Shown: in pieces, positions 32,842-52,331 of the stretch
How positions within the stretch are numbered: position 1 is the first letter of the stretch
Layout: each line of letters begins with the position of its first letter
Assembly (NCBI RefSeq): GCF_029360665.1
Contig: NZ_JARDUB010000001.1
Span: 806,001 to 870,000, forward strand
Reading direction: 5' to 3'
Source of the DNA: Eudoraea chungangensis
Lineage (GTDB): Bacteria; Bacteroidota; Bacteroidia; Flavobacteriales; Flavobacteriaceae
DNA length: 64,000 nucleotides
The notes under the pieces: model-generated
Database searches by the model: none
What the model saw: the letters and a program-made list of their open reading frames with translations, nothing else
What the model was told of the DNA's origin: nothing
Program-made: the position numbers and the translations under genes

Positions 32842-34029
32842 ATGGATCAACTAAGATTGATAGGAAGGGAAAAAGAGTTATTTGTAAATGATATTAAAAA
32901 TCATCAGAAAGATTTAGAAGGAATTGTGTCTTCCTCTACATTTTTGGTTTTGGGAGGTGCAGGTACCATAGGTCAGGCTGTTACCAAGGAGATATTTAAG
33001 AGAAGTCCCTTAAAGCTTCATGTAGTGGATATCAGCGAGAATAACATGGTAGAATTGGTTCGCGACTTACGCAGCACATACGGCTATATTTCCGGAGACT
33101 TTCAGACTTTTGCCTTGGATATTGGTTCTATTGAATATGACGCTTTCATAGAAAGTGACGGCAAGTACGACTATGTTTTAAATTTGTCCGCATTAAAACA
33201 CGTTCGCAGTGAAAAAGATCCTTTTACCCTAATGCGAATGATAGATGTAAATATTTTTAATACAGAAAAAACATTAAATCAGGCAATTGCCAAGGGCAGC
33301 CGTAAATATTTTTGTGTTTCAACAGATAAGGCTGCCAACCCTGTGAATATGATGGGGGCATCCAAACGAATCATGGAAATGTTTTTGATGCGAAAAAGCA
33401 AAGAAATTAAGATTTCCACCGCTCGTTTTGCTAATGTTGCATTTTCGGATGGATCGTTGTTATATGGGTTTGAAAAACGTATTCAAAAACGGCAACCTAT
33501 TGTTGCCCCCAATGATATTAAAAGATATTTTGTAGTTCCCAAAGAATCTGGTGAGCTGTGTTTAATGTCTTGTATTTATGGGGAAAACAGGGATATTTTT
33601 TTCCCAAAACTCAATGAAAACCTCCATTTAATTTCTTTTGCAGATATTGCTGTGAAATATTTAAATAATCTTAGTTATAAACCATACCTCTGTAGAGATG
33701 AACAAGAGGCAAGAGATTTAATTTTGAGTTTGCCGGATAAAAACCAGTGGCCGTGCCTGTTTACAAAAAGTGATACCACTGGGGAAAAGGATTTTGAAGA
33801 ATTTTATACAGAGAAAGAAGTTTTGGATTTAAACCGATTTGAGAATCTGGGAATCATAAAAAACGACTTATTATTTGATGATGAAAAACTGACCTTATTT
33901 GAAAATACAATTGTTGATTTAAAAAAAGAAAAATCATGGACCAAAGACCAACTGGTTGAATTATTTTTTACAATGATACCTAGTTTTGGACATAAAGAGA
34001 CAGGAAAATATTTGGACCAAAAGATGTAA
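32842..34029 (+). CDS. legB: NDP-N-acetylglucosamine 4,6-dehydratase (LegB/CapD-like)
   Basis: A 395-residue protein of the polysaccharide-biosynthesis/CapD SDR family. The NAD motif is GGAGTIGQA (38-46), VLNLSALKHVRSEKDPF matches the SALKHVP block, and STDKAANPVNMMGASKRIME holds the active-site region, where Met replaces the usual Tyr as in FlaA1-type dehydratases. About 100 extra C-terminal residues extend past the core. Given its place before legC-legH-legI-legG-ptmE-legF, it most likely makes the 4-keto-6-deoxy intermediate from GDP-GlcNAc (LegB); UDP-GlcNAc as substrate cannot be excluded from sequence. Confidence 0.87.
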   Translation: MDQLRLIGREKELFVNDIKNHQKDLEGIVSSSTFLVLGGAGTIGQAVTKEIFKRSPLKLHVVDISENNMVELVRDLRSTYGYISGDFQTFALDIGSIEYDAFIESDGKYDYVLNLSALKHVRSEKDPFTLMRMIDVNIFNTEKTLNQAIAKGSRKYFCVSTDKAANPVNMMGASKRIMEMFLMRKSKEIKISTARFANVAFSDGSLLYGFEKRIQKRQPIVAPNDIKRYFVVPKESGELCLMSCIYGENRDIFFPKLNENLHLISFADIAVKYLNNLSYKPYLCRDEQEARDLILSLPDKNQWPCLFTKSDTTGEKDFEEFYTEKEVLDLNRFENLGIIKNDLLFDDEKLTLFENTIVDLKKEKSWTKDQLVELFFTMIPSFGHKETGKYLDQKM

Positions 34030-34037
34030 TTACACCT

Positions 34038-35177
34038 ATGTTTAACTCTACGATATCCTTCATAAAAGAAAAATTTGATCAACAAGCATTTATTCCTCTT
34101 CATGAACCTTGTTTTGCAGGCAATGAAAAAGAGTATCTTTTGGAATGTATTGATTCCACTTTTGTTTCGAGTGTCGGTAAATTTGTGGACCAATTTGAAG
34201 ATAAAGTTGCAAAATTTACCAAGGCTAAGTTTGCGATAGCGACTGTAAATGGCACCTCGGCTTTGCACACTGCACTTCTTTTATCTGGAGTTGAAAAAAA
34301 TGATGAAGTTATAACCCAGGCCCTAACTTTTATTGCTACTTGCAATGCTATTAGCTATATAGGTGCACATCCGGTGTTTGTTGATGTGGATAAGGCGACC
34401 TTAGGCCTCTCCGCTGAAAAGTTAGAAGAATTCTTATCTGCCAATACGCAAGTAATCAATGGGATATGTATCAATAAATTAAGTAAGAGAAAAATCAAGG
34501 CGGTAGTTCCTATGCATACTTTCGGTTTTCCAGCACAAATGGAAGAGCTATTAGCGGTGTGCAAAAGATACAGCCTACCAATAATAGAGGATGCAGCAGA
34601 ATCATTGGGAAGCCTATATAAAGGAAAACATACCGGCACGATGGGTCTATTTGGGGTATTTAGTTTTAATGGAAATAAAACTATAACTACTGGCGGCGGT
34701 GGGATGATTGTTACAGACGATCTAGAACTTGCTAAAAAAGCGAAGCATTTAACTACAACTGCCAAGATTCCTCACAAATGGGATTTCGTACATAATCAGA
34801 TTGGTTACAACTATCGACTACCCAATGTAAATGCCGCTATAGGATGTGCGCAAATGGAAATGCTACCAAAAATAATTGCAAAAAAAAGGGCATTAGCAGC
34901 AGATTATAAAGAGTATTTTGAGTTACAAAAAGTTAACTTTGTGACAGAACAAAAAGAGTCTTTGGCAAATTACTGGTTGAATACTCTAATTTTGAATGAT
35001 GTAAATGAGAGGAATTCTTTTTTAGAAGAGACCAATGCTCAAGGCGTCATGACCAGGCCAATCTGGAAATTAATGAATCATTTACCAATGTTTAATAAAG
35101 CACAAACCGACGGCCTAGAAAATTCTAAATGGTTGGAGGAGAGGGTAGTAAATATTCCTAGTAGTGTCAAATTCTAA
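34038..35177 (+). CDS. legC: LegC-family PLP aminotransferase
   Basis: A 379-residue DegT/DnrJ/EryC1/StrS aminotransferase. The PLP-binding Lys is about residue 214 in SFNGNKTITTGGGGM, and DAAESLGS carries the Asp that contacts the PLP nitrogen. The N-terminal FIPLHEPCFAGNEKEYL and FVSSVGKFVDQFE are typical of the LegC subgroup. It aminates the 4-keto sugar from LegB. It starts 8 bp after legB and overlaps legH by 14 bp. Confidence 0.92.
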   Translation: MFNSTISFIKEKFDQQAFIPLHEPCFAGNEKEYLLECIDSTFVSSVGKFVDQFEDKVAKFTKAKFAIATVNGTSALHTALLLSGVEKNDEVITQALTFIATCNAISYIGAHPVFVDVDKATLGLSAEKLEEFLSANTQVINGICINKLSKRKIKAVVPMHTFGFPAQMEELLAVCKRYSLPIIEDAAESLGSLYKGKHTGTMGLFGVFSFNGNKTITTGGGGMIVTDDLELAKKAKHLTTTAKIPHKWDFVHNQIGYNYRLPNVNAAIGCAQMEMLPKIIAKKRALAADYKEYFELQKVNFVTEQKESLANYWLNTLILNDVNERNSFLEETNAQGVMTRPIWKLMNHLPMFNKAQTDGLENSKWLEERVVNIPSSVKF

Positions 35178-35805
35178 AGATGTTTACTTAATGGGTTATT
35201 CTGGCCATGCTTATGTTGTAGCCGATATAGCATTGGCAAATAACTATAGTATAAAAGGCTATTTTGATTTTCAAAAGAGTTTAAAAAATCCCTACAAGAT
35301 CCACTTCCTTGGCAATGAAAATGAAGTTGATGTACCAAAAATAATTGCTGATGCTGCCGTTTTTCCTGCAATAGGTTCAAACCTAATTCGAGAGAAAGTA
35401 ACAAACTTTATTATAAAAAATGGTCTAAAGCAAATAAGACTATTCGCTCCAAGTTCTTTTATTTCGAACAATGCTGAAATTGAATCCTCAACAGTGATTG
35501 GGCCTAATGCTGTGGTAAACAGCTTAAGTACCATAGGGCTAGGCTCTATAATAAATTCCGGTGCAATAGTAGAGCATGAATGTAGCCTGGGTTCCTTCTC
35601 GCATTTAGCTCCGGGAGCCATTTTAGCCGGAAATGTAAAAGTGGGAAAAAGAACCTTTATTGGAGCCAATGCAGTGGTAAAGCAAGGGGTTGAAATAGGA
35701 GATAATGTAGTTATTGGTGCAGGTTGTGTGGTTATTGAAGATATTCCTTCGAATGGCACATGGGTTGGAAATCCAGCGAGAAATATAACAAAACATGCGA
35801 AATAA
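35164..35805 (+). CDS. legH: Sugar O/N-acetyltransferase (LegH/NeuD/PglD-like)
   Basis: A 213-residue left-handed beta-helix acetyltransferase with an N-terminal PglD-type Rossmann-like part (VYLMGYSGHAYVVADIA) and hexapeptide repeats from about residue 95 (ESSTVIGPNAVVNSLSTIG and on), ending with the acetyl-CoA region GNPARNI. The start is GTG: the next Met (35191) would remove the first beta-strand before the GYSGH motif. In the legionaminic pathway LegH acetylates the 4-amino group; NeuD-like O-acetylation is the alternative. It overlaps both neighbours. Confidence 0.87.
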   Translation: MSNSKDVYLMGYSGHAYVVADIALANNYSIKGYFDFQKSLKNPYKIHFLGNENEVDVPKIIADAAVFPAIGSNLIREKVTNFIIKNGLKQIRLFAPSSFISNNAEIESSTVIGPNAVVNSLSTIGLGSIINSGAIVEHECSLGSFSHLAPGAILAGNVKVGKRTFIGANAVVKQGVEIGDNVVIGAGCVVIEDIPSNGTWVGNPARNITKHAK

Positions 35806-36799
35806 AGTACTAGTCATTGCAGAGGCAGGGGTTAATCACAATGGAGATATATCTATGGCTAAGAAGCTTATAGATGTGGCTTGTGAAGCTGAGGTTGATT
35901 TTGTGAAATTTCAGACTTTTAACGCTAAAAAACTAGTTAGCAGGTCTGCAAAAAAGGCTAAGTATCAGGAGGAGAATACAAAGGACACTTCGGAATCTCA
36001 GCTGAAAATGTTACAAAGACTTGAACTATCCCAAGAAGACCACTTTGAACTAATTGCATATTGTAAGACTAAGGGAATAAACTTTTTGTCTACGGGTTTT
36101 GACCTGGAAAGCTTGGAATTCTTAAATAAGCTGGGGATCCCATTGTTTAAAATCCCTTCAGGTGAGATTACAAATTTGCCTTATTTAAGAAAAATAGCCT
36201 CTTTTGGAAAGCCAACAGTGTTATCGACTGGAATGGCAAATATGGCAGAAATTAATGAGGCCATAATAGAGCTCTTATCGCAGGGATTAACAATAAAAGA
36301 CCTCACGATACTGCATTGCAATACTGAATATCCTACACCTATGGAGGATGTAAACCTTAGAGCTATGCAAACCATCGGAGATGCATTTGGAGTTGCCATA
36401 GGATATTCGGACCATACTTTGGGGATTGAAGTTCCGGTTGCGGCTGTTGCTCTAGGGGCAAAGGTTATTGAAAAGCACTTTACTTTAGACAGGGGATTAA
36501 AAGGACCAGACCACTTGGCTTCATTGGAACCGGGAGAATTAAAGGAAATGGTTAGGTCTATTCGCAATATTGAAATGGCTATGGGAAATGGGATAAAAGA
36601 GCCAAGTAAAAGCGAGGTTAAGAATAAAGAAATAGCCCGTAAGAGTATTGTAGCTAGCCAAAGTATTAATAAAGGAGAATACTTTTCAGAAAGAAATCTA
36701 GCAGTCAAAAGACCTGGTACAGGAATAAGTCCAATGAAGTGGGATAGCATTATTGGTACAAAAGCCACAAAGGACTATAGAGAAGATGATATTATATGA
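35795..36799 (+). CDS. legI: N,N'-diacetyllegionaminic acid synthase (NeuB family)
   Basis: A 334-residue NeuB-family enzyme that condenses a 6-carbon sugar with phosphoenolpyruvate to give a nonulosonic acid. The TIM-barrel has AEAGVNHNGDISMAKKL at the N-terminus, DFVKFQTF, FKIPSGEITNLPYL, LHCNTEYPTP and VIEKHFTLDRGLKGPDH. The C-terminal SAF antifreeze-like domain (about 275-334) has RKSIVASQSINKGE and RPGTGISPM. The choice of legionaminic over sialic acid comes from the surrounding legB/C/H genes. It overlaps legH by 11 bp and legG by 4 bp. Confidence 0.92.
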   Translation: MRNKVLVIAEAGVNHNGDISMAKKLIDVACEAEVDFVKFQTFNAKKLVSRSAKKAKYQEENTKDTSESQLKMLQRLELSQEDHFELIAYCKTKGINFLSTGFDLESLEFLNKLGIPLFKIPSGEITNLPYLRKIASFGKPTVLSTGMANMAEINEAIIELLSQGLTIKDLTILHCNTEYPTPMEDVNLRAMQTIGDAFGVAIGYSDHTLGIEVPVAAVALGAKVIEKHFTLDRGLKGPDHLASLEPGELKEMVRSIRNIEMAMGNGIKEPSKSEVKNKEIARKSIVASQSINKGEYFSERNLAVKRPGTGISPMKWDSIIGTKATKDYREDDII

Positions 36800-37971
36800 A
36801 AAAAATCGCCGTAGTTACTGGTTCCAGAGCCGAGTATGGTCTTTTAAAACCACTAATTAAACTAATTGCGTCAAAGGATGATCTGGAGCTACAACTAATA
36901 GTAACGGGGATGCATCTTATGCCAAAATTTGGGGATACTTATCTTCAAATAGAAGAGGATGGATTTCATATTACAGCAAAAATTTATGATGATTTAGTTG
37001 GAGATTCTTCCCGAGAAATATCTAGGGCTATGGGCAATACGATGATTGGTTTTGCAGATGCTTTGGAAGAGCTAGAGCCAGATATCATGGTAGTCTTGGG
37101 AGATAGGTCAGAAATATTTTCAGCGGTTGCAGCTGCCCTTATTGCACTAATACCCGTCGCTCATATTCATGGAGGCGAAACAACAGAAGGAGCTTATGAC
37201 GATTATTTAAGGCATGCGATTACTAAAATGAGTATGTTCCATTTTGCCTCGACGGAAATTTATAGGAAGAGAATTATTCAAATGGGAGAGAATCCCGATA
37301 AGGTTTTTAATGTTGGCGCTATTGGGATTGATAGTATTCGCTCATTAAATTTAATGACCCAAGAAAATTTGGAAAAATCACTTGGAAAAAAATTATTAAA
37401 GAATTCGGTGTTAATCACTTTTCACCCGGTTACCTTAGAAAATGCTAGTGCTCAAAATCAGTTTGGAGATCTTTTAAAAGCCTTGGACGAGCTAAAAGAC
37501 ACTACCTTAATTTTTACGAAACCTAATTCCGATAAAGACGGAGATATAATCATAAAAATGATCGATGATTATGTATTTCAAAACGCCTCTAAGGCAATTG
37601 CCTTTACCTCATTAGGTCAATTAAGATATTTATCTGCATTACAGTATGTATCTTTTGTTATTGGAAATTCATCTAGCGGAATACTCGAAGTTCCCTACTT
37701 TAAAATTCCGACTATCAATATAGGTGATAGACAAAAGGGACGAATTATGCCTAAAAGTGTTATTAATTGCAAACCAAGTTACCCAGAAATTCTAAGGGCC
37801 ATTGGCCAGGCAAAGGACGATGATTTTTTGAATGAGATTCAATCGCAAAAGAACTTATATGGGGATGGTCATGCCGCAGAGGCCATACTGGATAAGTTGG
37901 AATCCTTTGATTCCAAAGAAATGAAAAAACCGTTTTATGACATCAAAGATTTAGATTTTGAAAAACCATAG
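36796..37971 (+). CDS. legG: NDP-sugar 2-epimerase, hydrolysing (LegG/NeuC)
   Basis: A 391-residue GT-B-fold enzyme of the hydrolysing UDP-GlcNAc 2-epimerase family. It begins VVTGSRAEYGLLKPL and carries VLGDRSEIFSAVAAA, IPVAHIHGGETTEGAYDD, FHPVTLE and FVIGNSSSGILEVPYFKIPTIN. It epimerises C2 and releases the nucleotide, giving the free sugar used by LegI. Its presence, instead of a PseG-type hydrolase, argues for legionaminic rather than pseudaminic acid. The ptmE start overlaps its end by 14 bp. Confidence 0.92.
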   Translation: MKKIAVVTGSRAEYGLLKPLIKLIASKDDLELQLIVTGMHLMPKFGDTYLQIEEDGFHITAKIYDDLVGDSSREISRAMGNTMIGFADALEELEPDIMVVLGDRSEIFSAVAAALIALIPVAHIHGGETTEGAYDDYLRHAITKMSMFHFASTEIYRKRIIQMGENPDKVFNVGAIGIDSIRSLNLMTQENLEKSLGKKLLKNSVLITFHPVTLENASAQNQFGDLLKALDELKDTTLIFTKPNSDKDGDIIIKMIDDYVFQNASKAIAFTSLGQLRYLSALQYVSFVIGNSSSGILEVPYFKIPTINIGDRQKGRIMPKSVINCKPSYPEILRAIGQAKDDDFLNEIQSQKNLYGDGHAAEAILDKLESFDSKEMKKPFYDIKDLDFEKP

Positions 37972-39004
37972 AAAACATATTATTAGTATTGACAGCACTG
38001 TAAAAGAGGCACTTATTAAGCTAAATGACTTGGGGAAAGACGCTGTTCTTTTTGTAGTTAATAATAAGAACAAATTAATGGGGTCTTTAACTGACGGAGA
38101 TGTTCGTAGAGGACTTATTAGGGGTATTACCCTAGACAGCACTTTGAAGGAGGTAATTCAGGGAGAGCCGAAGTTTGTTAGAAAAGGAGAGCAGAATATT
38201 GAAGAAATAATTCAATATCGTGAAGGTAATTATAGAATATTGCCCGTGATTGATAAAAAAGACAGAATAGTAAATGTTATTAATTTTAGAGAATTACGTT
38301 CATATCTGCCTTTAGATGCGGTTATTATGGCTGGCGGCATGGGTACTCGGTTAAAACCACTAACCGAGAAAACTCCCAAACCATTACTAAAGATTGGCAA
38401 AAAGCCAATTATGGAACACAACTTAGATAGACTAGCGTTGTATGGAATTGATGACTTTTGGGTTTCGGTAAAATATTTAGGAGAACAGATAGAAGGCTAT
38501 TTTGGGAATGGAGATTCTAAAGACATCCAGATTCAGTACGTATGGGAAAATGAGCCTTTGGGAACAATTGGTGCTGTTTCCAAAATTGAAAGTTTTAACC
38601 ACGATTACGTTTTATTGACGAATTCAGACATACTAACCAATTTGGATTACGAACATTTTTTCTTAGATTTCTTAAAGCAAAAAGCCGATTTATCTGTTGT
38701 TACCATTCCGTACAAAGTAGACATACCCTATGCCGTATTAGAAACAAGTAATGGCCATGTCTTAAATTTAAGAGAGAAACCTACCTATACTTATTATTCC
38801 AATGGAGGGATTTATTTGATAAAAAAAACAGCACTAAAATTTTTACCCAAAGGCGAGTTTTTTAATGCTACGGATTTAATGGAAAAACTTATAGCAGAAA
38901 AGAAAAAGGTAATTTCATACCCGCTTTCGGGCTATTGGCTAGATATTGGAAAGCATGAGGACTTTGAAAAGGCACAACGAGATATAGAACAAATTAAGTT
39001 TTAA
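37958..39004 (+). CDS. ptmE: Nucleotidyltransferase with N-terminal CBS pair (PtmE-like, GDP-sugar forming)
   Basis: A 348-residue fusion: two CBS motifs (about 1-115, SLTDGDVRRGLIRG and RILPVIDKKDRIV) followed by a sugar nucleotidyltransferase domain (about 118-348, VIMAGGMGTRLKPLT and TPKPLLKIGKKP). This layout is that of Campylobacter PtmE, which makes GDP-linked glucosamine for legionaminic acid. The start is TTG: no ATG occurs until residue 41, inside the first CBS motif. The CBS pair may sense adenosyl nucleotides. It overlaps legG and touches legF (TAATG). Confidence 0.88.
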   Translation: MKNHRKHIISIDSTVKEALIKLNDLGKDAVLFVVNNKNKLMGSLTDGDVRRGLIRGITLDSTLKEVIQGEPKFVRKGEQNIEEIIQYREGNYRILPVIDKKDRIVNVINFRELRSYLPLDAVIMAGGMGTRLKPLTEKTPKPLLKIGKKPIMEHNLDRLALYGIDDFWVSVKYLGEQIEGYFGNGDSKDIQIQYVWENEPLGTIGAVSKIESFNHDYVLLTNSDILTNLDYEHFFLDFLKQKADLSVVTIPYKVDIPYAVLETSNGHVLNLREKPTYTYYSNGGIYLIKKTALKFLPKGEFFNATDLMEKLIAEKKKVISYPLSGYWLDIGKHEDFEKAQRDIEQIKF

Positions 39005-39717
39005 TGGAAATTTTAGTTACTATCTGTGGAAGAGGTGGATCTAAAGGGATTCCCGGGAAAAATATTAAGGAATTAAACGGGCGGCCTTTAATAGAATACA
39101 CAATCATGCATGCCAATAGCTTTGCAGAAAATAAGCAGGCAGATATTGCCTTGTCTACTGATGATACCGAAATTTTAAACATAGCAAAAGAGTGCGGACT
39201 TAAAACGGATTATAAAAGACCAGATTATTTAGCAACGGATAAAGCAGGAAAAATAGAAGTTTTAAATGACGTCTTATTGTTTTATGAGAATACAAAACAA
39301 AAGCATTACGATGTTATACTTGATTTGGATATAACTTCACCTCTGAGAACAATTAATGATTTAAATGAGGGTCTTGAAAAACTAATACAAAACCCAGATG
39401 CTATTAATTTATTTTCAGTTTCTAAACCACATAAGAATCCGTATTTCAATGTAGTAGAAGTTGCTGAAGACGGCTATGTTAAATTAGTTAAACCTAGTGA
39501 AGTGAGGTCCAGACAAACCGCCCCTAAAGTCTACGATATGAATGCCTCATTTTACTTTTATCGGAGTAAATTTTTTAAAGAAGGATACAAATCTGCTATA
39601 ACTCCACGCAGCCTATTTTATCTTATGGACCATATCTGTTTTGATTTAGATGAACCATTAGATTTTGACATTATGGAGTACCTCTTAAGTCAGAATAAAC
39701 TAGGAATGCAGCTATGA
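39004..39717 (+). CDS. legF: CMP-N,N'-diacetyllegionaminic acid synthetase (NeuA family)
   Basis: A 237-residue CMP-sialic-acid-synthetase family enzyme. The N-terminal CTP-binding motif is CGRGGSKGIPGKNIKELNG, followed by ALSTDD, DLDITSPLRTINDL and the C-terminal DLDEPLDFDI. It activates the nonulosonic acid with CTP so that a transferase can use it. It is the last catalytic step of the pathway, joined by 1- and 4-bp overlaps to its neighbours. Confidence 0.93.
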   Translation: MEILVTICGRGGSKGIPGKNIKELNGRPLIEYTIMHANSFAENKQADIALSTDDTEILNIAKECGLKTDYKRPDYLATDKAGKIEVLNDVLLFYENTKQKHYDVILDLDITSPLRTINDLNEGLEKLIQNPDAINLFSVSKPHKNPYFNVVEVAEDGYVKLVKPSEVRSRQTAPKVYDMNASFYFYRSKFFKEGYKSAITPRSLFYLMDHICFDLDEPLDFDIMEYLLSQNKLGMQL

Positions 39718-40631
39718 AAGTACTGATTTTAGGTTTGGGTTCTATAGCTCAAAAGCATATACATGTATTAAAAGAACTAGAACCAAAAGTGCAATTATAT
39801 GCGCTAAGATCTTCTGAAAATTCAGATACACAAAAAGGGGTCACCAACCTATTTACTTATGAGGAACTGAGGCAATACAAATTTAATTTTGTTTTAATTT
39901 CTAGTCCTTCTTCCATTCATTGGGATCAAATTTTTCGCCTACAAGATCTAAATGTTCCCATGATGATTGAAAAACCATTATTTATTAGTAAAGATCAAAT
40001 TGAAGCTTTTGAAAAGAGCAATAGTAATTGGCCATTAATGTATGTAGCCTGTAATTTCAGATTTCATCCATTAATTAAATTTATTAAGACTTACTTAAAA
40101 GAAAACCCATCTAAGATTAATGAAGTTAGTGCGTATTGCGGGTCTTTTTTGCCAGATTGGAGACCTGGAAAAGACTATACCAAAGTATATAGTGCAATTA
40201 GAGAGCTTGGAGGTGGCGTGCACTTAGATTTAATACATGAAATAGACTATTTAGTGTATTTGTTTGGACTACCCCTTAGTTCTGTATCCAAAAAAAGAAA
40301 ATCGTCGAAATTAGAAATCAATAGTTTTGATTCTTCAATGAGTATTTTGGAGTTTAATAGTTTTCAGGCACAAGTAACGCTTAATTATTTTAGAAAAGAC
40401 ACGAAGCGAAATTTAGAAATTGTTCGCGAAAAAGACACCTTATATGTAGATTTTGTAAAAGGTGAAATTACCAATTTGTTTAATAATGAATTGCTTTTTA
40501 AGGTGAAGGATTTGTCCATATTTGTGACCTATAAAGAACAGATGGCCTATTTTTTGGAATGTGTTGATAAAAATAAGTCGCCAATGAATTCCCCTAATGA
40601 GGCAATTGCAGTTTTAAAGTGTATACTATGA
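39714..40631 (+). CDS. Gfo/Idh/MocA-family oxidoreductase (possible PtmF counterpart)
   Basis: A 305-residue NAD(P)-dependent oxidoreductase. The Rossmann motif is LILGLGSIAQKH (3-14), the catalytic Lys region is MIEKPLF near 84, and GGGVHLDLIHEIDYL near 165-180 matches the family's second active-site segment. It overlaps legF and the SDR gene by 4 bp each. From memory, Campylobacter ptm clusters have a ptmF gene of this sort beside ptmE/ptmB/ptmA; its reaction is not clear to me, so I give no symbol. It may modify the nonulosonate or its precursor. Confidence 0.82.
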   Translation: MKVLILGLGSIAQKHIHVLKELEPKVQLYALRSSENSDTQKGVTNLFTYEELRQYKFNFVLISSPSSIHWDQIFRLQDLNVPMMIEKPLFISKDQIEAFEKSNSNWPLMYVACNFRFHPLIKFIKTYLKENPSKINEVSAYCGSFLPDWRPGKDYTKVYSAIRELGGGVHLDLIHEIDYLVYLFGLPLSSVSKKRKSSKLEINSFDSSMSILEFNSFQAQVTLNYFRKDTKRNLEIVREKDTLYVDFVKGEITNLFNNELLFKVKDLSIFVTYKEQMAYFLECVDKNKSPMNSPNEAIAVLKCIL

Positions 40632-41365
40632 ATTTAGATGGAAAGATAATTTTGGTTACTGGAGGAAGCGGCTTACTGGGGCGTGCAATTCTAACAGATA
40701 TTAAACAGAACAATGGAACGGCCATAAACCTGGATATAAACGCAGATAATAATATCGACAAAGGTGAAATCAATTTAGACATTACCAGCGATAAGTCAAT
40801 AAAGCAGGCTATTACCACAATTCTAAAAAAGCACAAAAGAATAGATGGGTTGGTCAATAACGCCTACCCAAGAACCTCAGACTGGGGAAAGGCTTTTGAA
40901 GATGTTAATCCAGATTCGTTTAGTAAAAATATAGATATGCAGTTAAGCAGGATTTTTGCCCTTTCTCAACCTGTATTAGAAATAATGAAGAAGCAAGGTT
41001 ATGGTTCTTTAGTTCATATGTCTTCGGTTTATGGCATTGTTGGAAATGATTTCACGGTATACGAAAATACTCCTCTAACCTCACCCGCAGCTTATTCCGC
41101 AATCAAAGGAGGACTTATAAACTTCAGCAGGTATTTGGCCTCTTATTTTGGAAAATACAATGTAAGATCTAACTGCGTTTCTCCCGGCGGGATTTTTGAT
41201 CACCAAAACAAAATATTTGTAGAACAGTATGAGTATAGGGTCCCCATGAAAAGAATGGGAACTCCTAAGGATATTGCACCCATTGTGAGTTTTTTACTGT
41301 CAGACGACTCGAGCTATATTACAGGGCAGAATATAGCCGTAGATGGAGGTTGGACAGCTATTTGA
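40628..41365 (+). CDS. Short-chain dehydrogenase/reductase (possible PtmA counterpart)
   Basis: A 245-residue classical SDR: VTGGSGLLGRAIL near the N-terminus, LVNNAYPRTSDWG (NNA motif), SSVYGIVG with the catalytic Ser, and YSAIKGG as the YxxxK site; it ends with SYITGQNIAVDGGWTA. I took the ATG at 40628, which gives an ATGA overlap with the previous stop, rather than a GTG at 40619. Ptm-type legionaminic clusters contain an SDR (PtmA) in the same neighbourhood. Its exact step is unknown. Confidence 0.83.
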   Translation: MNLDGKIILVTGGSGLLGRAILTDIKQNNGTAINLDINADNNIDKGEINLDITSDKSIKQAITTILKKHKRIDGLVNNAYPRTSDWGKAFEDVNPDSFSKNIDMQLSRIFALSQPVLEIMKKQGYGSLVHMSSVYGIVGNDFTVYENTPLTSPAAYSAIKGGLINFSRYLASYFGKYNVRSNCVSPGGIFDHQNKIFVEQYEYRVPMKRMGTPKDIAPIVSFLLSDDSSYITGQNIAVDGGWTAI

Positions 41366-42996: not shown

Positions 42997-43545
42997 ATGA
43001 TCGGGCTCATAAAGAAGATAAAATTTGATATCAAATCCGATAGGTTAGGTCCTGACTGTCCTTTTACCCATTGGCGTCTGTTTTTTAAGAAAGAGATGAC
43101 AACTATTTGCAAAAAAAAGTTTTTATCCTTTGGTGAGAATGCAGAAATAAGACCATATTCATTTATTGTTAACTGCTCGAAAATAAGTATCGGCAATAGG
43201 GTTGTTATAAGACCAGGGACTATGCTCTTTGCGGACAATCGTTTCCCTGATAAAGGAAAGATTACTATAGAAAATGATGTTTTAATAGGATCTGGAGTAC
43301 ATATTTACGTTTCTAATCACGCCTATGGTAAAAAGGGTGTTCCAATTATCGAACAAGGGCATTTTGACCCTCAGGATACTATTTTAAAAAAAGGCTGTTG
43401 GATTGGAGCCAACAGTGTTTTATTACCCGGGGTAGTTATTGGCGAAAATTCTATTGTAGGAGCAGGTAGCATTGTTACCAAAAGTATTCCTGCCAATGTA
43501 GTTGTAGCTGGAAACCCTGCCAAAACCATAAAGAATTTATCTTGA
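42997..43545 (+). CDS. Hexapeptide-repeat (LbH) O-acetyltransferase
   Basis: A 182-residue acyltransferase of the left-handed beta-helix type, like WcaF/NodL/maltose acetyltransferases. Hexapeptide repeats begin near residue 48 (FGENAEIRPYSFIVN) and continue through KITIENDVLIGSGVHIY. The catalytic His region is VSNHAYGKKG, and the end has WIGANSVLLPGVVIGENSI then VVAGNPAKTIK. It probably acetylates a sugar nucleotide or lipid-linked sugar in the cytoplasm. The stop overlaps the Wzx start. Confidence 0.88.
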   Translation: MIGLIKKIKFDIKSDRLGPDCPFTHWRLFFKKEMTTICKKKFLSFGENAEIRPYSFIVNCSKISIGNRVVIRPGTMLFADNRFPDKGKITIENDVLIGSGVHIYVSNHAYGKKGVPIIEQGHFDPQDTILKKGCWIGANSVLLPGVVIGENSIVGAGSIVTKSIPANVVVAGNPAKTIKNLS

Positions 43546-44783
43546 AACACAGCGTAGAAAGTCTTTTAACTCGCGGAATTTCTATAGGTTCCAAGTTTTT
43601 ACTTCTTGGATATACGGCCAAGGTGTTATCTCTTGCGGACTACGGAAGTTTTCAATTGGTTAGCTATTTCATATTGATTTCCACTACTATTTTTGGCTTG
43701 GAGTATTATAATATTAGTAATAGAGAAATAGCGGAAAATCCATCAAAAAAAGATGTTTATCAGGAACATCTTGCCTTTTACTTCAGGGCTTTTCCCATTG
43801 TGCTGTTAATTCAGATAGGAGTGTTTTTGGCTATATTCCCTAAGGAACTTATCACTATAACCAATGTAGTTTGCATCACCATAATAGGTCTTTGTGACTA
43901 TCTTTCTCAAGAAGTATACAGGTATTTAATGATAAACAAAGAATATCGAAAGGGTAATATTCAACTAGTCTATAAGAGTTTAGTTTTTCTTGTTCTGATT
44001 ATTCTTTATGTTTTAATTTTTAAGGGCTTGAATTTCGATCAACTATTGTTAATTATGGTTGGCTCGTATTTGCTATTATTATTATTCGCCTACCATAGTT
44101 TTTCAAATAATCTTTATAGTATTTCTTTAAACAAAATACGAATTCTAAATTGGCGAGACTTCAAAGTTAAATGGTCCTTAATATGGCCATTTGTTGTTCT
44201 GGTTTTATTCTTAAAAGGAATTGAGTTTTCTGATAAATTTCTTATTGGAAGATATGAAGGTTTAGAAAACACAGGTATATACTCCTTTATATTTGCCATC
44301 GCTTCCGTAATAAATGTCTTTGTTGTCAGTGGATTTTATATAATATATCTACCTCAGTTAATTGGTAGTTATTCTTCAGATAAAGTTATTTTTCTAAAAG
44401 AGTTACGCAAATTTTCTTTACTTACTATTGTCTCAAGTATTTTACTTGCTATAGGGATATATATGATAGCGCCATTTATTATCAAACTAATAGACAAGGA
44501 AGTCTTTTTAGACCATTTGGATATGTTAGGTATTTTATTAATTGGGTTTGTTCTCAATAATATCTCATTAATCCCTCATTTGTTTTTATATGTTAGCCAT
44601 AAAGAGAAATCAATAACTGTAATTATGGGAATTGCATTAGCCATAAACCTTAGCTTTAACCTTATTTTGATTCCCAAATTTGGGATTTATGGTGCGGCTT
44701 ACAGTTTCTTAATCACCTATGTAGCTGTTTTAATTTTAAAATCAATAAGCGCCTTAAGAGTATGGAAGAGAATTGCGGTTTAA
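43542..44783 (+). CDS. Wzx-like polysaccharide flippase (MOP superfamily)
   Basis: A 413-residue integral membrane protein with about twelve hydrophobic segments, in the polysaccharide transport (PST/Wzx) branch of the MOP superfamily. The N-terminal GISIGSKFLLLGYTAKVLSL and the repeated helix pairs fit, as does IPKFGIYGAAYSFLITY near the end. The start is TTG, overlapping the previous stop (TTGA); no ATG occurs before the first helices. It should flip the undecaprenyl-linked repeat unit to the periplasm. It overlaps the next gene by 22 bp. Confidence 0.87.
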   Translation: MKHSVESLLTRGISIGSKFLLLGYTAKVLSLADYGSFQLVSYFILISTTIFGLEYYNISNREIAENPSKKDVYQEHLAFYFRAFPIVLLIQIGVFLAIFPKELITITNVVCITIIGLCDYLSQEVYRYLMINKEYRKGNIQLVYKSLVFLVLIILYVLIFKGLNFDQLLLIMVGSYLLLLLFAYHSFSNNLYSISLNKIRILNWRDFKVKWSLIWPFVVLVLFLKGIEFSDKFLIGRYEGLENTGIYSFIFAIASVINVFVVSGFYIIYLPQLIGSYSSDKVIFLKELRKFSLLTIVSSILLAIGIYMIAPFIIKLIDKEVFLDHLDMLGILLIGFVLNNISLIPHLFLYVSHKEKSITVIMGIALAINLSFNLILIPKFGIYGAAYSFLITYVAVLILKSISALRVWKRIAV

Positions 44784-45727
44784 TCGTATTTGAAGCCGCC
44801 ATGAATACACGCTATAAGGAATTAGCGAGGATACATGGCTTTAAGGTATTCACAGTAAATTTGGACAATAACCTTAGCCCTAGGTTAATTGATAATATCA
44901 TTAAACGCATAAAATCAAAAGAGGACCTAAAACAACGGTTGTTGGTAATGTCTAAGTTCATTCGCGATAATAATTTTAATGTGGTTTACCTTTCTAATGC
45001 GGAGGGATATGTAAGCATGAATTTATTGTATCCATTGAAAAAAGCGTTTCCCAACATATCATTTATAGCTTTACAACACGGTATTTTTCCTTTGAGGCAT
45101 TCTTATATTAGGGAGGCACTGCGCAAAACAGTAAATAGAGCAGCCTATTTTTTTACTGGAGTATTTATATTTGGTGAGGGGTTTGGAGGAATAAAACTAG
45201 ACAAATACTACGTATATTCTGACCGTGAGCGAGATTTTCTACTTCGAAAAAAGGGGTGGAGGTCTGAGGCAGTTATTGCAGATATCCGATTTATAAAGGC
45301 AGAATTGTATGAGATGTTCTTAAATAGCACCTCTAGACAAGATGAAGGTACCGTACTGTTATTACTCCAAGGTCTGTATAGGGCAGGATTATGTACCGAA
45401 AAAGAAGAAGAATCGCTAATTCAGGGTACAATAGACTATCTTTCAGCTAATTTCAATAAGGTATTAATAAAAGAACATCCTTCATGTGGGAATCGTTTGA
45501 AAAATATGAACATGCCTAAAAACACTGAAGAAGTGGAGACTATGCTGGAGGGGTTTTCTAGGAGCAAATCTGCTTATAGCTTCTTCTCTACTAGCTTAAT
45601 CGATGCAAAAATATTTGAAATAAAGACATATGGGATCTACTCTAATTGGATTAACGTAGACCCTGAACTCTACGAAAACTTTGATGTAAAAGTACAATTT
45701 GAAGACACTATCTGTCCCAAAAGCTAG
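44762..45727 (+). CDS. Candidate nonulosonate (legionaminic acid) transferase, polysialyltransferase-like
   Basis: A 321-residue protein without classic GT-A or common GT-B signatures. It has a Rossmann-like N-terminal half with FIALQHGIFP (102-110) and a C-terminal half with VLLLLQGLY, KVLIKEHPS (233-241) and AYSFFSTSLIDAK (271-283). A His-Pro motif followed by a Ser/Thr-rich loop is what bacterial sialyltransferases and polysialyltransferases (GT52, GT38 and related CMP-sugar enzymes) share for CMP binding. Its place between Wzx and Wzy, downstream of legF, fits transfer of legionaminic acid. The family assignment is by motif only. It overlaps both neighbours. Confidence 0.55.
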   Translation: MEENCGLIVFEAAMNTRYKELARIHGFKVFTVNLDNNLSPRLIDNIIKRIKSKEDLKQRLLVMSKFIRDNNFNVVYLSNAEGYVSMNLLYPLKKAFPNISFIALQHGIFPLRHSYIREALRKTVNRAAYFFTGVFIFGEGFGGIKLDKYYVYSDRERDFLLRKKGWRSEAVIADIRFIKAELYEMFLNSTSRQDEGTVLLLLQGLYRAGLCTEKEEESLIQGTIDYLSANFNKVLIKEHPSCGNRLKNMNMPKNTEEVETMLEGFSRSKSAYSFFSTSLIDAKIFEIKTYGIYSNWINVDPELYENFDVKVQFEDTICPKS

Positions 45728-49274: not shown

Positions 49275-50417
49275 ATGAAGGTTGCAATTGTACACGAATG
49301 GTTAACGGTTATTGCAGGTTCGGAAAGCTGCTTCAAAGAGTTTGCCCAAATATATCCTGAAGCGGATATATTTGTTTTGGTATCTACCAATGATAGTTTA
49401 GTTAAACTTAACATCGACCCTTCCAGGGTTACCAATTCCTTTATTCAGAAGCTACCAAAGGCCAAAACAAAATGGAAAAATTATCTGCCTCTTTTTCCTT
49501 ATGCGGTTGAGCAGTTTGATCTCTCGGAATATGATTTGATTATTTCATCTTCTCACGCAGTGGCAAAAGGAGTGATAACAAATGCAAACCAAATACATAT
49601 CTGTTACATTTACTCTCCTATTCGCTATGCGTGGGATTTATACCATCAGTATTTAGATGAGGCAAATCTGAAGAGTGGATTAAAAGGTTTTATTGTTAAA
49701 CAGGTTCTTCATTATATAAGAAGGTGGGATAGATCTACCGCTAATAATGTAGATGAGTTTATTCCCATTTCTAAGTATATAGAAAAACGTGTTTGGAGGA
49801 CTTATAGAAGGAAATCTTACAAAGTAATTTATCCACCGGTCGCAGTAAATGAATTTAAGCTTAGGGAAGAAAAAGAAGATTTTTACCTTACTGCATCAAG
49901 ACTTGTTCCCTATAAAAAAATTGGGCTTATTGTAGAAGCTTTCGCCCAAATGCCGAATAAAAAGTTAGTTGTAATTGGGGATGGACCCGAATTTGACAAA
50001 ATAAAAAAAGAAGCAAAGGAGAATGTGCAAATTATGGGTTATCAGAAGTTTGAAGTCCTGAAAGATCATATGCAGAGGGCCAAGGCCTTTGTTTTTGCCG
50101 CTGAAGAGGATTTTGGAATCATTCCAATCGAAGCTCAGGCATGTGGAACACCTGTGATTGCCTACGGAAAAGGAGGTTCTTTAGAAACAGTAAACGGCTC
50201 TTTTGTAAACGAAGAATTAACGGAGAATACTACTGGAATATATTTTAAGGAACAGGAAGTGAATTCTTTGATAGACGCAGTAGACTACTTCGAGAAAAAT
50301 ACACAACACTTTAATCCAGTGAAAGTGAGAAATTTTGCATTAAACTTTAGCAGAGAATTATTTGTAGAAAACATTGAAACCACGTTTCAAGAAATAGTAG
50401 AAAAACACACGAAATGA
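49275..50417 (+). CDS. GT4-family glycosyltransferase (WbaZ-like)
   Basis: A 380-residue GT-B glycosyltransferase. The N-terminus [16 protein letters not shown] is typical of the mannosyltransferase-like subgroup with WbaZ. The C-terminal domain has [21 protein letters not shown] and the E-x7-E motif in [19 protein letters not shown]. It probably adds mannose, D-rhamnose or a similar sugar; the gmd and rmd genes right after it point to GDP-D-rhamnose or GDP-mannose as donor. It overlaps gmd by 4 bp. Confidence 0.9.
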
Positions 50418-51448
50418 AAAAAGCAATTATAACGGGGATTACCGGGCAAGACGCAGCATACTTAGCCGAGCTCTTATTGGAAAAGGGATATAAAGTAATT
50501 GGTACTTATCGAAGGACTAGCTCTACTAATTTTTGGAGAATAGAAGAACTTGGGATTGAAAACCACCCAAACCTACAATTGTATGAATATGATTTGGTGG
50601 ACTTATCAAGTGCTTTTAGAATAATTTCTGAGGTAGAGCCCGATGAAATCTATAATTTGGCGGCTCAAAGTTTTGTCGGAGTTTCTTTTACTCAACCAAT
50701 TGCAACTGCTCAAATAACCGGTATTGGCGCCATGAATTTACTGGAGGCCATTAGATCTATCAATAAGAACATTAAATTCTATCAGGCGTCTACTTCTGAA
50801 ATGTTTGGAAAGGTACACGCCATTCCTCAAAATGAAGAGACTCCATTTCATCCCCGTAGCCCATATGGAGTAGCAAAAGTATTTGCCCACTGGGCTACCT
50901 TAAATTACAGAGAGTCTTATGGTATTTTTGGAACTAGTGGAATCCTATTTAACCATGAATCTCCTCTGCGCGGGAAGGAGTTTGTTACGCGCAAGATTTC
51001 GGATAGCGTCGCAAAAATTTATTTAGGGAAGCAAGAATTTATAGAGCTCGGGAATATGGATGCGAAGAGAGATTGGGGTTTTGCAAAGGAGTATGTAGAC
51101 GGGATGTATAGAATGTTACAAATAGAGCAACCGGATACTTTTGTCCTTGCAACAAATAAAACACAAACTGTAAGGGATTTTGTTACCATGGCTTTTAAAG
51201 CGGTTCAGATAGACCTTGAATGGAGGGGTAAAAATGAAGAGGAAATAGCTCTGGATCAAAAGACAGGGAAGACCTTAGTAAAGGTAAATCCAAAATATTA
51301 TCGACCGGCAGAAGTTGATTTGCTGATTGGAGATGCATCAAAAGCTAACGAAATCTTAGAATGGAAGCCCAAAACTTCCTTAAAAGAACTATGTGAAATG
51401 ATGGTATTAAAGGATATTCAAAGAAACCAAAATGGAAGCACCTTCTAA
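50414..51448 (+). CDS. gmd: GDP-mannose 4,6-dehydratase
   Basis: A 344-residue extended SDR. It has [17 protein letters not shown] at the N-terminus, [31 protein letters not shown], the Thr/Ser-Glu site [21 protein letters not shown] with the YxxxK pair and [17 protein letters not shown], all diagnostic of Gmd. It makes GDP-4-keto-6-deoxy-D-mannose. The following rmd gene overlaps by 17 bp. Confidence 0.97.
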
Positions 51449-52331
51449 AGGAATAGTTTTTATAACGGGTATAGATGGATTTACTGGAAATCACTTGGAA
51501 GCAGAACTTCTTAAACAGGGCTTTCAGGTATATGGAAGTACGTTTAAAAAGCCAGAAAATCCAAATCATTTTCAATGTAATATTTTAGAAAAAGAACAGC
51601 TTGAGGTTGTTTTTGATAAAACAAAGCCTGTTTATGTAATTCATTTGGCTGCAATATCCTTTGTTGCTTCTGAAAACATTCCAATGATGTATGAAACTAA
51701 CATCCTTGGGACTCTAAATGTTCTAGATGTTTTAGCCTCTGCCGGATTTCCTATTAAGAAAGTTTTGGTGGCTAGCAGTGCCGCGGTTTATGGCAATATA
51801 GGAAATGAATTAAGTGAACAAATGATGCCGAGGCCTGTAAATCATTATGGAAACAGTAAATTGGCCATGGAGAACATGGTATCCAACTACTTCGAAAAGC
51901 TAAATATCATAATTACACGACCTTTTAACTATACGGGCCCTGGACAAGAAGAACATTTTTTAATCCCCAAAATCATTGCCCACTTTAAAACTAATAAAGA
52001 GGTTATTGAATTGGGCAATACAGGAACATATAGAGAGTATAATGACGTCCGATTTGTTTGTAAATTGTATGTAGACCTATTAAAGGCCGGGAGTGTTTCA
52101 GAGGTGGTAAATGTAGGCTCAGGAAAGACCTATAGTATAAAACAAATACTGCAGACCATGGAAGACCTAACAGACCATAGTATACGCGTTGAAGTAAACC
52201 CAAAATTTGTTAGGGCGAATGAAATTCTAGAACTCAAAAGTGATACGAGGAATCTTAAAAAAATTCTGAACCGAAAGAGCTTGGGCATATATCCTTTGAA
52301 GGAGACGTTAGACTCAATGCTTAACGCTTAA
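51432..52331 (+). CDS. rmd: GDP-6-deoxy-D-mannose reductase (Rmd-like)
   Basis: A 299-residue [21 protein letters not shown] is the NAD(P) motif, [13 protein letters not shown] and [13 protein letters not shown] follow, and the active site is [30 protein letters not shown] is typical of Rmd. With Gmd it should make GDP-D-rhamnose. A GDP-fucose synthase would have different blocks, so L-fucose is less likely, but a related reductase such as GDP-6-deoxytalose synthase cannot be ruled out. Confidence 0.88.

Follow-up and report, generated by a model that had tools for sequence, protein, structure and literature searches.

Which nonulosonate is made by an operon that carries a complete gene set for cytidine monophosphate (CMP)-legionaminic acid and, in addition, two oxidoreductase genes next to legF? 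This question is raised by a stretch of 64,000 nucleotides from Eudoraea chungangensis (contig NZ_JARDUB010000001.1, positions 806,001 to 870,000), here called the window. Nine open reading frames (ORFs) on the + strand span its positions 32842-41365 with a sole gap of 8 bp (legB-legC) and overlaps at all other junctions, which confirms the tight arrangement and the gene order given in an original prediction. There, the operon was described as a legionaminic acid cassette using guanosine diphosphate (GDP)-linked sugars, with a Gfo/Idh/MocA-type oxidoreductase (Gfo/Idh) and a short-chain dehydrogenase/reductase (SDR) following it. In kind, it is an ordinary nonulosonate operon. However, the position of the two oxidoreductase genes proved to be more than adjacency, since they are co-inherited with legF and thus are members of the cassette. 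The product is fairly likely CMP-8-epilegionaminic acid, formed via PtmE-supplied, probably GDP-linked, intermediates.

The co-inheritance was revealed by a comparison of loci containing PtmE. From 115 loci, 16 were dropped for want of a full-length PtmE ORF. Of the resulting 99, both Gfo/Idh and SDR are present in 28, Gfo/Idh alone in one (L100, where the SDR sits on another contig), SDR alone in six and neither in 64. The profiles used here are somewhat circular, because they were built from loci carrying this block of legF, gfo and sdr; the scores are bimodal, block loci reaching at least 291 (Gfo/Idh) and 302 (SDR) and non-block loci at most 59 and 118, respectively. After removal of 16 loci with none of LegF, Gfo/Idh and SDR within 7 kb and of eight with an incomplete set, the remaining 75 loci, four from E. 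coli and the window gave 80 tree rows.

In the LegF tree, all 31 block rows lie on one side of a single branch and the 49 others opposite (Shimodaira-Hasegawa-like approximate likelihood ratio test 97). The block label changes once on this tree, in comparison to a mean of 25 for shuffled labels, and none of 500 shuffles was as low. A more careful LegF tree of 89 rows, to which Campylobacter-like rows, one Aliivibrio row and five of the eight incomplete rows were added, contains a block clade of 35 rows (34 block rows and the partial L100; support 100/97); judged from the row counts, the other four partial rows lie outside. The two clades are separated at positions corresponding to window LegF residues 144, 151, 173 and 178. 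On the core-gene trees, calculated with the quicker method FastTree, the label changes 21 times for PtmE (80 rows), 23 for LegC (76 rows), 23 for LegI (79 rows) and 21 for LegG (77 rows), with shuffled means of 23.5-25.1 and 21-245 of 500 shuffles as low; a slight clustering is seen for PtmE and LegG. This contrast indicates that the three genes legF, gfo and sdr are passed on jointly and swapped largely independently of the core. The block rows are drawn from Bacteroidota, Pseudomonadota and Campylobacterota.

These trees bear on the view that the operon makes plain CMP-legionaminic acid and that the two oxidoreductases, PtmF and PtmA in Campylobacter, serve another step, e.g. the precursor supply proposed there. 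It would fit to the same block in Campylobacter-like loci, whose sugar is called legionaminic acid, as well as to the assignment of PtmA to the GDP-sugar segment (PMC4481668; publications are cited by their PMC accession). Nevertheless, a pair involved in precursor supply should not track the subfamily of LegF, the last enzyme, across three phyla. Further, the block is nearly unlinked to the PtmE tree (21 changes, shuffled mean 25, 21-35 of 500 shuffles as low), and legionaminic acid has been reported from E. coli O161, which lacks the block. This view is therefore considered unlikely.

Besides the block, a variant was observed downstream of ptmE in six loci (L041, L078, L080, L114, L130 and L135), which keep the SDR together with an ORF that contains the motif IPGGAHTYS and, on visual inspection, resembles a GSA-like aminotransferase. 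A Gfo/Idh of greater distance (130-142 bits) is encoded in L041, L080 and L135, and an ORF resembling, by eye, an amidohydrolase in L114 and L135. These six may make another nonulosonate derivative.

The second line of evidence links the block to reported sugars. In E. coli, the dehydratase DNA was matched in 23 of 5426 genomes, and 12 of these 23 loci were read, with serotype labels taken from the annotation of the flippase or polymerase. The block, i.e. Gfo/Idh, cytidylyltransferase and SDR after PtmE, is present in both O61-labelled loci, all three O108-labelled loci and three unlabelled ones, in one of which the annotation splits the SDR into two ORFs. At the three O161-labelled loci neither oxidoreductase is annotated, and one unlabelled locus lacks the block as well. 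For E. coli O61 and O108, 8-epilegionaminic acid has been reported (PMC3628348; for O108 via a reference title), and for O161 Legp5NAc7N(D-alanyl), i.e. legionaminic acid (Leg) with D-alanyl at N7 (PMC10609480). The block thus matches the reported sugar in three serotypes. The window belongs to the former group: its LegF shares a clade with the LegF of O61 and O108, apart from that of O161, and the Gfo/Idh and SDR genes adjoin legF within a legionaminic operon. The dehydratase was rejected as the source of the 8-epimer, since the enzyme of O161 (73% identity to the window protein) falls into the same subfamily as those of O61 and O108.

The O61/O108 O-antigen clusters (elg genes) contain the same nine functions as the window, with a dehydratase 74-75% identical, in the order legC-legG-legI-legH-ptmE-gfo-legF-sdr, compared with legC-legH-legI-legG-ptmE-legF-gfo-sdr in the window. 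O61 also shares with the window a WeiJ-like acetyltransferase; here, the gene following the SDR encodes a protein 58% identical over 183 residues to one encoded further downstream in the window. Such relatives above 110 bits occur in 3 of 28 block loci and in 0 of 47 other loci, which makes the acetyltransferase a weak candidate for a block component. In the O161-type cluster (L164), no acetyltransferase is annotated between neuB and ptmE and a FemA/FemB-type gene follows legC, which fits the reported D-alanyl group; in L193, an ORF without a match occupies the position after legC.

Several observations weigh against the 8-epimer. The E. coli comparison comprises three serotypes and few independent events, and O161 differs in its N-acyl group as well. 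The Gfo/Idh of the window shares only 27-32% identity with its O61/O108 counterparts; for LegF and SDR, the values are 32-33% and 36-38%, respectively. Furthermore, three Campylobacter-like loci (L195-L197), from 1.6-Mb Campylobacter-order genomes with a ptm-type cluster, carry the block with a LegF inside the block clade, yet publications describe the sugar of Campylobacter as legionaminic acid. Finally, one Aliivibrio genome, which we take to be A. salmonicida, has the dehydratase, but its whole genome yielded no match to the SDR at E <= 1e-10, Gfo/Idh having been sought at its two cluster loci only; for A. salmonicida, 8eLeg5Am7Ac has been reported (PMC7371886). In this genome, the legionaminic cluster is present twice (L194, L200) with LegF broken in both copies, and a LegF pseudogene of A. 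salmonicida has been published (PMC7371886). The sugar of P. shigelloides is also called legionaminic acid, a label that does not decide the configuration at C8 because the term NMR (nuclear magnetic resonance) is absent from that paper.

The divergence from the E. coli proteins could also mean that the block yields another derivative of legionaminic acid, namely the C7/C8 epimer acinetaminic acid (Aci), 8-epiacinetaminic acid (8eAci) or a keto sugar. In A. baumannii, Aci or 8eAci is attributed to different short-chain dehydrogenases added to the same lga genes, pathways which still need biochemical studies (PMC5595891). However, O61 and O108 harbor the same gene set and their reported structure is the 8-epimer, and such a product appears very unlikely.

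Reports from other genera are in line with 8-epilegionaminic acid (8eLeg). In A. baumannii, lgaABCDEFG leads to Leg and lgaABCDEF/elaABC to 8eLeg, ElaA being a putative oxidoreductase (PMC9676051); compared by description alone, the latter set resembles the window in adding genes, including an oxidoreductase, to a legionaminic core. The 8eLeg locus of strain LAC-4 contains six unusual ORFs, two of them oxidoreductases (PMC4345345). For V. fischeri, an O-antigen with 8-epi-legionaminic acid (PMC7940393) and the oxidoreductase VF_0146 as well as PtmA (PMC4481668, table 5) are listed. Also, EpaA (CTP transferase and aldo-keto reductase) and EpaB (SDR) from A. baumannii prophages 8-epimerise pseudaminic acid, as demonstrated by NMR (PMC12053666). 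In contrast to the window, the substrate is pseudaminic acid, which is converted to 8-epipseudaminic acid, and the aldo-keto reductase is fused to the cytidylyltransferase; nevertheless, this pair indicates that a cytidylyltransferase together with two oxidoreductase domains is able to 8-epimerise a nonulosonate.

The comparison with Campylobacter drawn in the original prediction holds for the PtmE-type gene set: like the window, the three Campylobacter-like loci contain PtmE, LegG, LegI, a block-clade LegF, Gfo/Idh (ptmF) and SDR (ptmA) in one run. These loci thus also carry both oxidoreductases around legF, which therefore are not genome-specific extras. They differ in that no window-type dehydratase is present in the 19 kb examined at each. 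According to the literature, the Campylobacter ptm/leg cluster further differs in its reported product, Leg, and in its target, which is flagellin rather than a polysaccharide.

On the level of the single proteins, the Gfo/Idh structure is predicted with high quality (predicted local distance difference test score 93.7) and shows the Gfo/Idh fold, matching sugar and cyclitol dehydrogenases. The active-site residues of both families, E86-K87-P88 of the Gfo/Idh and S136, Y159 and K163 of the SDR, are invariant in 23 rows. A single-sequence search of the PDB with the Gfo/Idh returned no match at E <= 1e-5; the profile gave 92 matches at E <= 0.001, including YjhC (6o15) and the Gfo/Idh entries 6z3b/6z3c, all of which presumably act on sialic-acid derivatives. 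The SDR scores just under the cut-off of an NCBIfam model (PRK09186, 251.8 versus 255 bits) and reaches 167.8 versus 350 bits for the PtmA model.

The family names legC, legH, legI, legG, ptmE and legF of the original prediction agree with the profile matches (Table 1); for LegF, no NCBIfam equivalog passes its cut-off and the assignment was made via Pfam. PtmE has ten relatives at 64-67% identity over nearly the full length. All members of the GDP-linked CMP-legionaminic acid pathway (PtmE, LegC, LegG, LegI, LegF and the N-acetyltransferase) are present. This grouping is not due to chance, since a full-length PtmE recurs at 99 other loci and LegC and LegI in 76 and 79 of the 80 tree rows, respectively. 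The nearest named relatives in the gene trees are Algibacter, Cellulophaga and Croceitalea, which indirectly supports the term flavobacterial used in the original prediction. A search of the whole genome (3.73 Mb, 17 contigs) yielded a single NeuB-family match, by which the operon is its only nonulosonate operon; for LegC, one match lies above and three weaker ones below the cut-off. Other operon types were rejected. A pseudaminic acid operon is contradicted by Met171, which replaces the catalytic Tyr of the inverting PseB, and by scores under the cut-offs for PseB (62.3/407.75 bits), PseC (231.4/423.5) and PseI (295.7/340.25). An N-acetylneuraminic acid operon was ruled out by the dehydratase, LegC and the model scores, and the uridine diphosphate (UDP)-bacillosamine initiation pathway, defined by a dehydratase, an aminotransferase, an acetyltransferase and a sugar-phosphate transferase in the absence of NeuB, by the presence of NeuB, NeuC and LegF.

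The gene called LegB encodes a nucleoside diphosphate (NDP)-N-acetylglucosamine (GlcNAc) 4,6-dehydratase, which can now be placed more precisely in PF02719 of the FlaA1/PglF superfamily as a Met-type enzyme close to the PDB entry 3PVZ. This entry, named UDP-N-acetylglucosamine 4,6-dehydratase and presumably from V. fischeri, is matched over residues 4-395, the next PDB sequence scoring 85 bits. The residues T161-D162-K163, M171 and K175 are invariant in nine aligned rows including the window; T-D-K and M-x3-K form the signature of PglF/WbpM, which belong to the C5-retaining group (PMC8987622). Since table 1 of PMC8987622 gives UDP-GlcNAc as the substrate of the superfamily members PglF, WbpM, FlaA1 and PseB, the dehydratase itself gives no support for GDP-linked precursors, and this part of the original prediction rests on PtmE and its co-occurrence.

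The same listing favors UDP-linked intermediates as in Bacillus subtilis, with a different role for PtmE, and a sister subfamily (43-46% identity) occurs in bacillosamine-like loci, partly judged by eye. However, the distribution of PtmE argues for GDP. In a phylum sample of 296 genomes, 14 dehydratase matches at E <= 1e-80 were obtained, nine at 69-100% identity (including the window's own genome) and five at 43-46%. A PtmE match at E <= 1e-30 is present in all nine genomes of the close subfamily (one PtmE with a stop) and in none of the five of the sister subfamily. Among named genomes, the best 80 of at least 581 dehydratase candidates were used, a sample biased towards nearest relatives. 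Here, 65 loci extend 9 kb or more beyond the dehydratase on the downstream side; 64 of them contain a full-length PtmE, and in the remaining one (L104) the PtmE match is cut by the locus end; the other 15, with shorter downstream sequence, contain PtmE in one case. UDP-linked intermediates are thus rather improbable, and GDP-linked ones the likeliest. Conversely, 34 of 35 PtmE places in the phylum sample have a full-length ORF; PtmE is accompanied by a window-type dehydratase in seven of these, by a different SDR type in 14 and by none of the two in 13, which suggests that PtmE is retained whereas the dehydratase can be exchanged.

The five sister-subfamily loci (L155-L159) contain a clear LegC relative in four cases (269-310 bits) and a weak one (41 bits) in the fifth, a LegH/PglD relative in three and, adjoining in four, an ORF resembling by eye a sugar-phosphate transferase. 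No LegI, PtmE or LegF match was found in any of the five, and apparently they encode a bacillosamine-type pathway. The window-type dehydratase occurs in 3 of 14 Aliivibrio genomes, and the 3PVZ stretch in none of the loci taken from these three. Neither 4TQG nor a type-B dehydratase was shown to be the LegB of C. jejuni; 4TQG is not among the 42 matches of the type-B query at E <= 1e-20, and type-B matches are present in four of five Campylobacter-order genomes, one of them strong (399.5 bits).

Judged from its families, PtmE would activate GlcNAc-1-phosphate, probably with GTP, and the Met-type dehydratase would form a 4-keto-6-deoxy sugar with C5 retained. LegC would then aminate C4 and LegH acetylate the resulting amine, LegG would strip the nucleotide and invert C2, LegI add pyruvate and LegF add CMP. 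After or together with LegF, the Gfo/Idh and SDR would oxidise and re-reduce C8 of the free or the CMP-linked sugar, yielding CMP-8-epilegionaminic acid. The legionaminic-type product of the original prediction thus stands with the complete set and PtmE; the assignment shifts towards the 8-epimer, which, given the LegF subfamily, Gfo/Idh and SDR, appears more likely than plain legionaminic acid.

The operon would supply this CMP-activated sugar to a surface polysaccharide. Upstream, rmlBACD-like genes (named by eye) and, downstream, acyltransferases, a PF01943 flippase, two Wzy_C proteins and a bacterial sugar transferase mark the neighbourhood as a polysaccharide locus. Two adjoining GDP_Man_Dehyd-family genes at 50414-52331 (450.8 and 138.6 bits) are perhaps GDP-deoxyhexose genes serving the same polysaccharide. 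In the window, no Rfam family at the gathering threshold and no tRNA were found. Elsewhere in this genome (L070, C4:1-15000), a 663-aa protein with a 90-bit dehydratase match adjoins a second LegC-like aminotransferase, which is a separate amino-sugar pathway.

Table 1. Genes of the nonulosonate operon and candidate accessory genes in the window
Feature	Position	Strand	Evidence
NDP-GlcNAc 4,6-dehydratase ("LegB"), PtmE-linked PF02719 subfamily	32842..34029	+	PF02719 142.9 bits; 3PVZ 693 bits
LegC aminotransferase	34038..35177	+	TIGR04181 553.8 bits (cut-off 420)
LegH-type N-acetyltransferase, NeuD/PglD family	35164..35805	+	TIGR03570 196.1 bits (cut-off 160.8)
LegI nonulosonate synthase, NeuB family	35795..36799	+	TIGR03569 513 bits (cut-off 399.65)
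LegG hydrolysing 2-epimerase, NeuC family	36796..37971	+	TIGR03568 473.8 bits (cut-off 235.9)
PtmE, CBS and sugar-1-phosphate nucleotidyltransferase	37958..39004	+	PF00571 36.8 bits and PF00483 134.6 bits in one ORF
LegF CMP-nonulosonate synthetase, block-linked subfamily	39004..39717	+	CTP_transf_3, PF02348 56.2 bits; block clade
Gfo/Idh/MocA oxidoreductase, PtmF-type; proposed C8 epimerase half 1	39714..40631	+	PF01408, PF22725
SDR oxidoreductase, PtmA-type; proposed C8 epimerase half 2	40619..41365	+	PF13561 143.5 bits
Hexapeptide acetyltransferase, kin of E. coli O61 WeiJ; possible accessory	42997..43545	+	Sequence identity
Candidate nonulosonate glycosyltransferase	44762..45727	+	PF07388 alpha-2,8-polysialyltransferase 23.7 bits (gathering 23.3), marginal

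For the family, it is possible, although tentative, that legF-ptmF-ptmA represents a portable C8-epimerase block of three enzymes, swapped as one unit among nonulosonate operons of Bacteroidota, Pseudomonadota and Campylobacterota, whose presence predicts 8-epilegionaminic acid; PtmF and PtmA of Campylobacter would then need a new function. In the passages of literature on 8-epilegionaminic acid with Gfo or short-chain dehydrogenase, such a three-phylum block was not found, although it may be published; among the matches listed by the text search, PMC5595891 alone shows 8-epilegionaminic acid. The subfamily of 3PVZ, whose PDB entry carries a UDP-GlcNAc label, is now a candidate for enzymes acting on GDP-GlcNAc. 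Since legionaminic acid and its 8-epimer are indistinguishable by mass alone, a sugar may be labelled legionaminic although its C8 configuration has not been proven. If the block sets C8, the epimer would be readable from the genome and the step directly testable.

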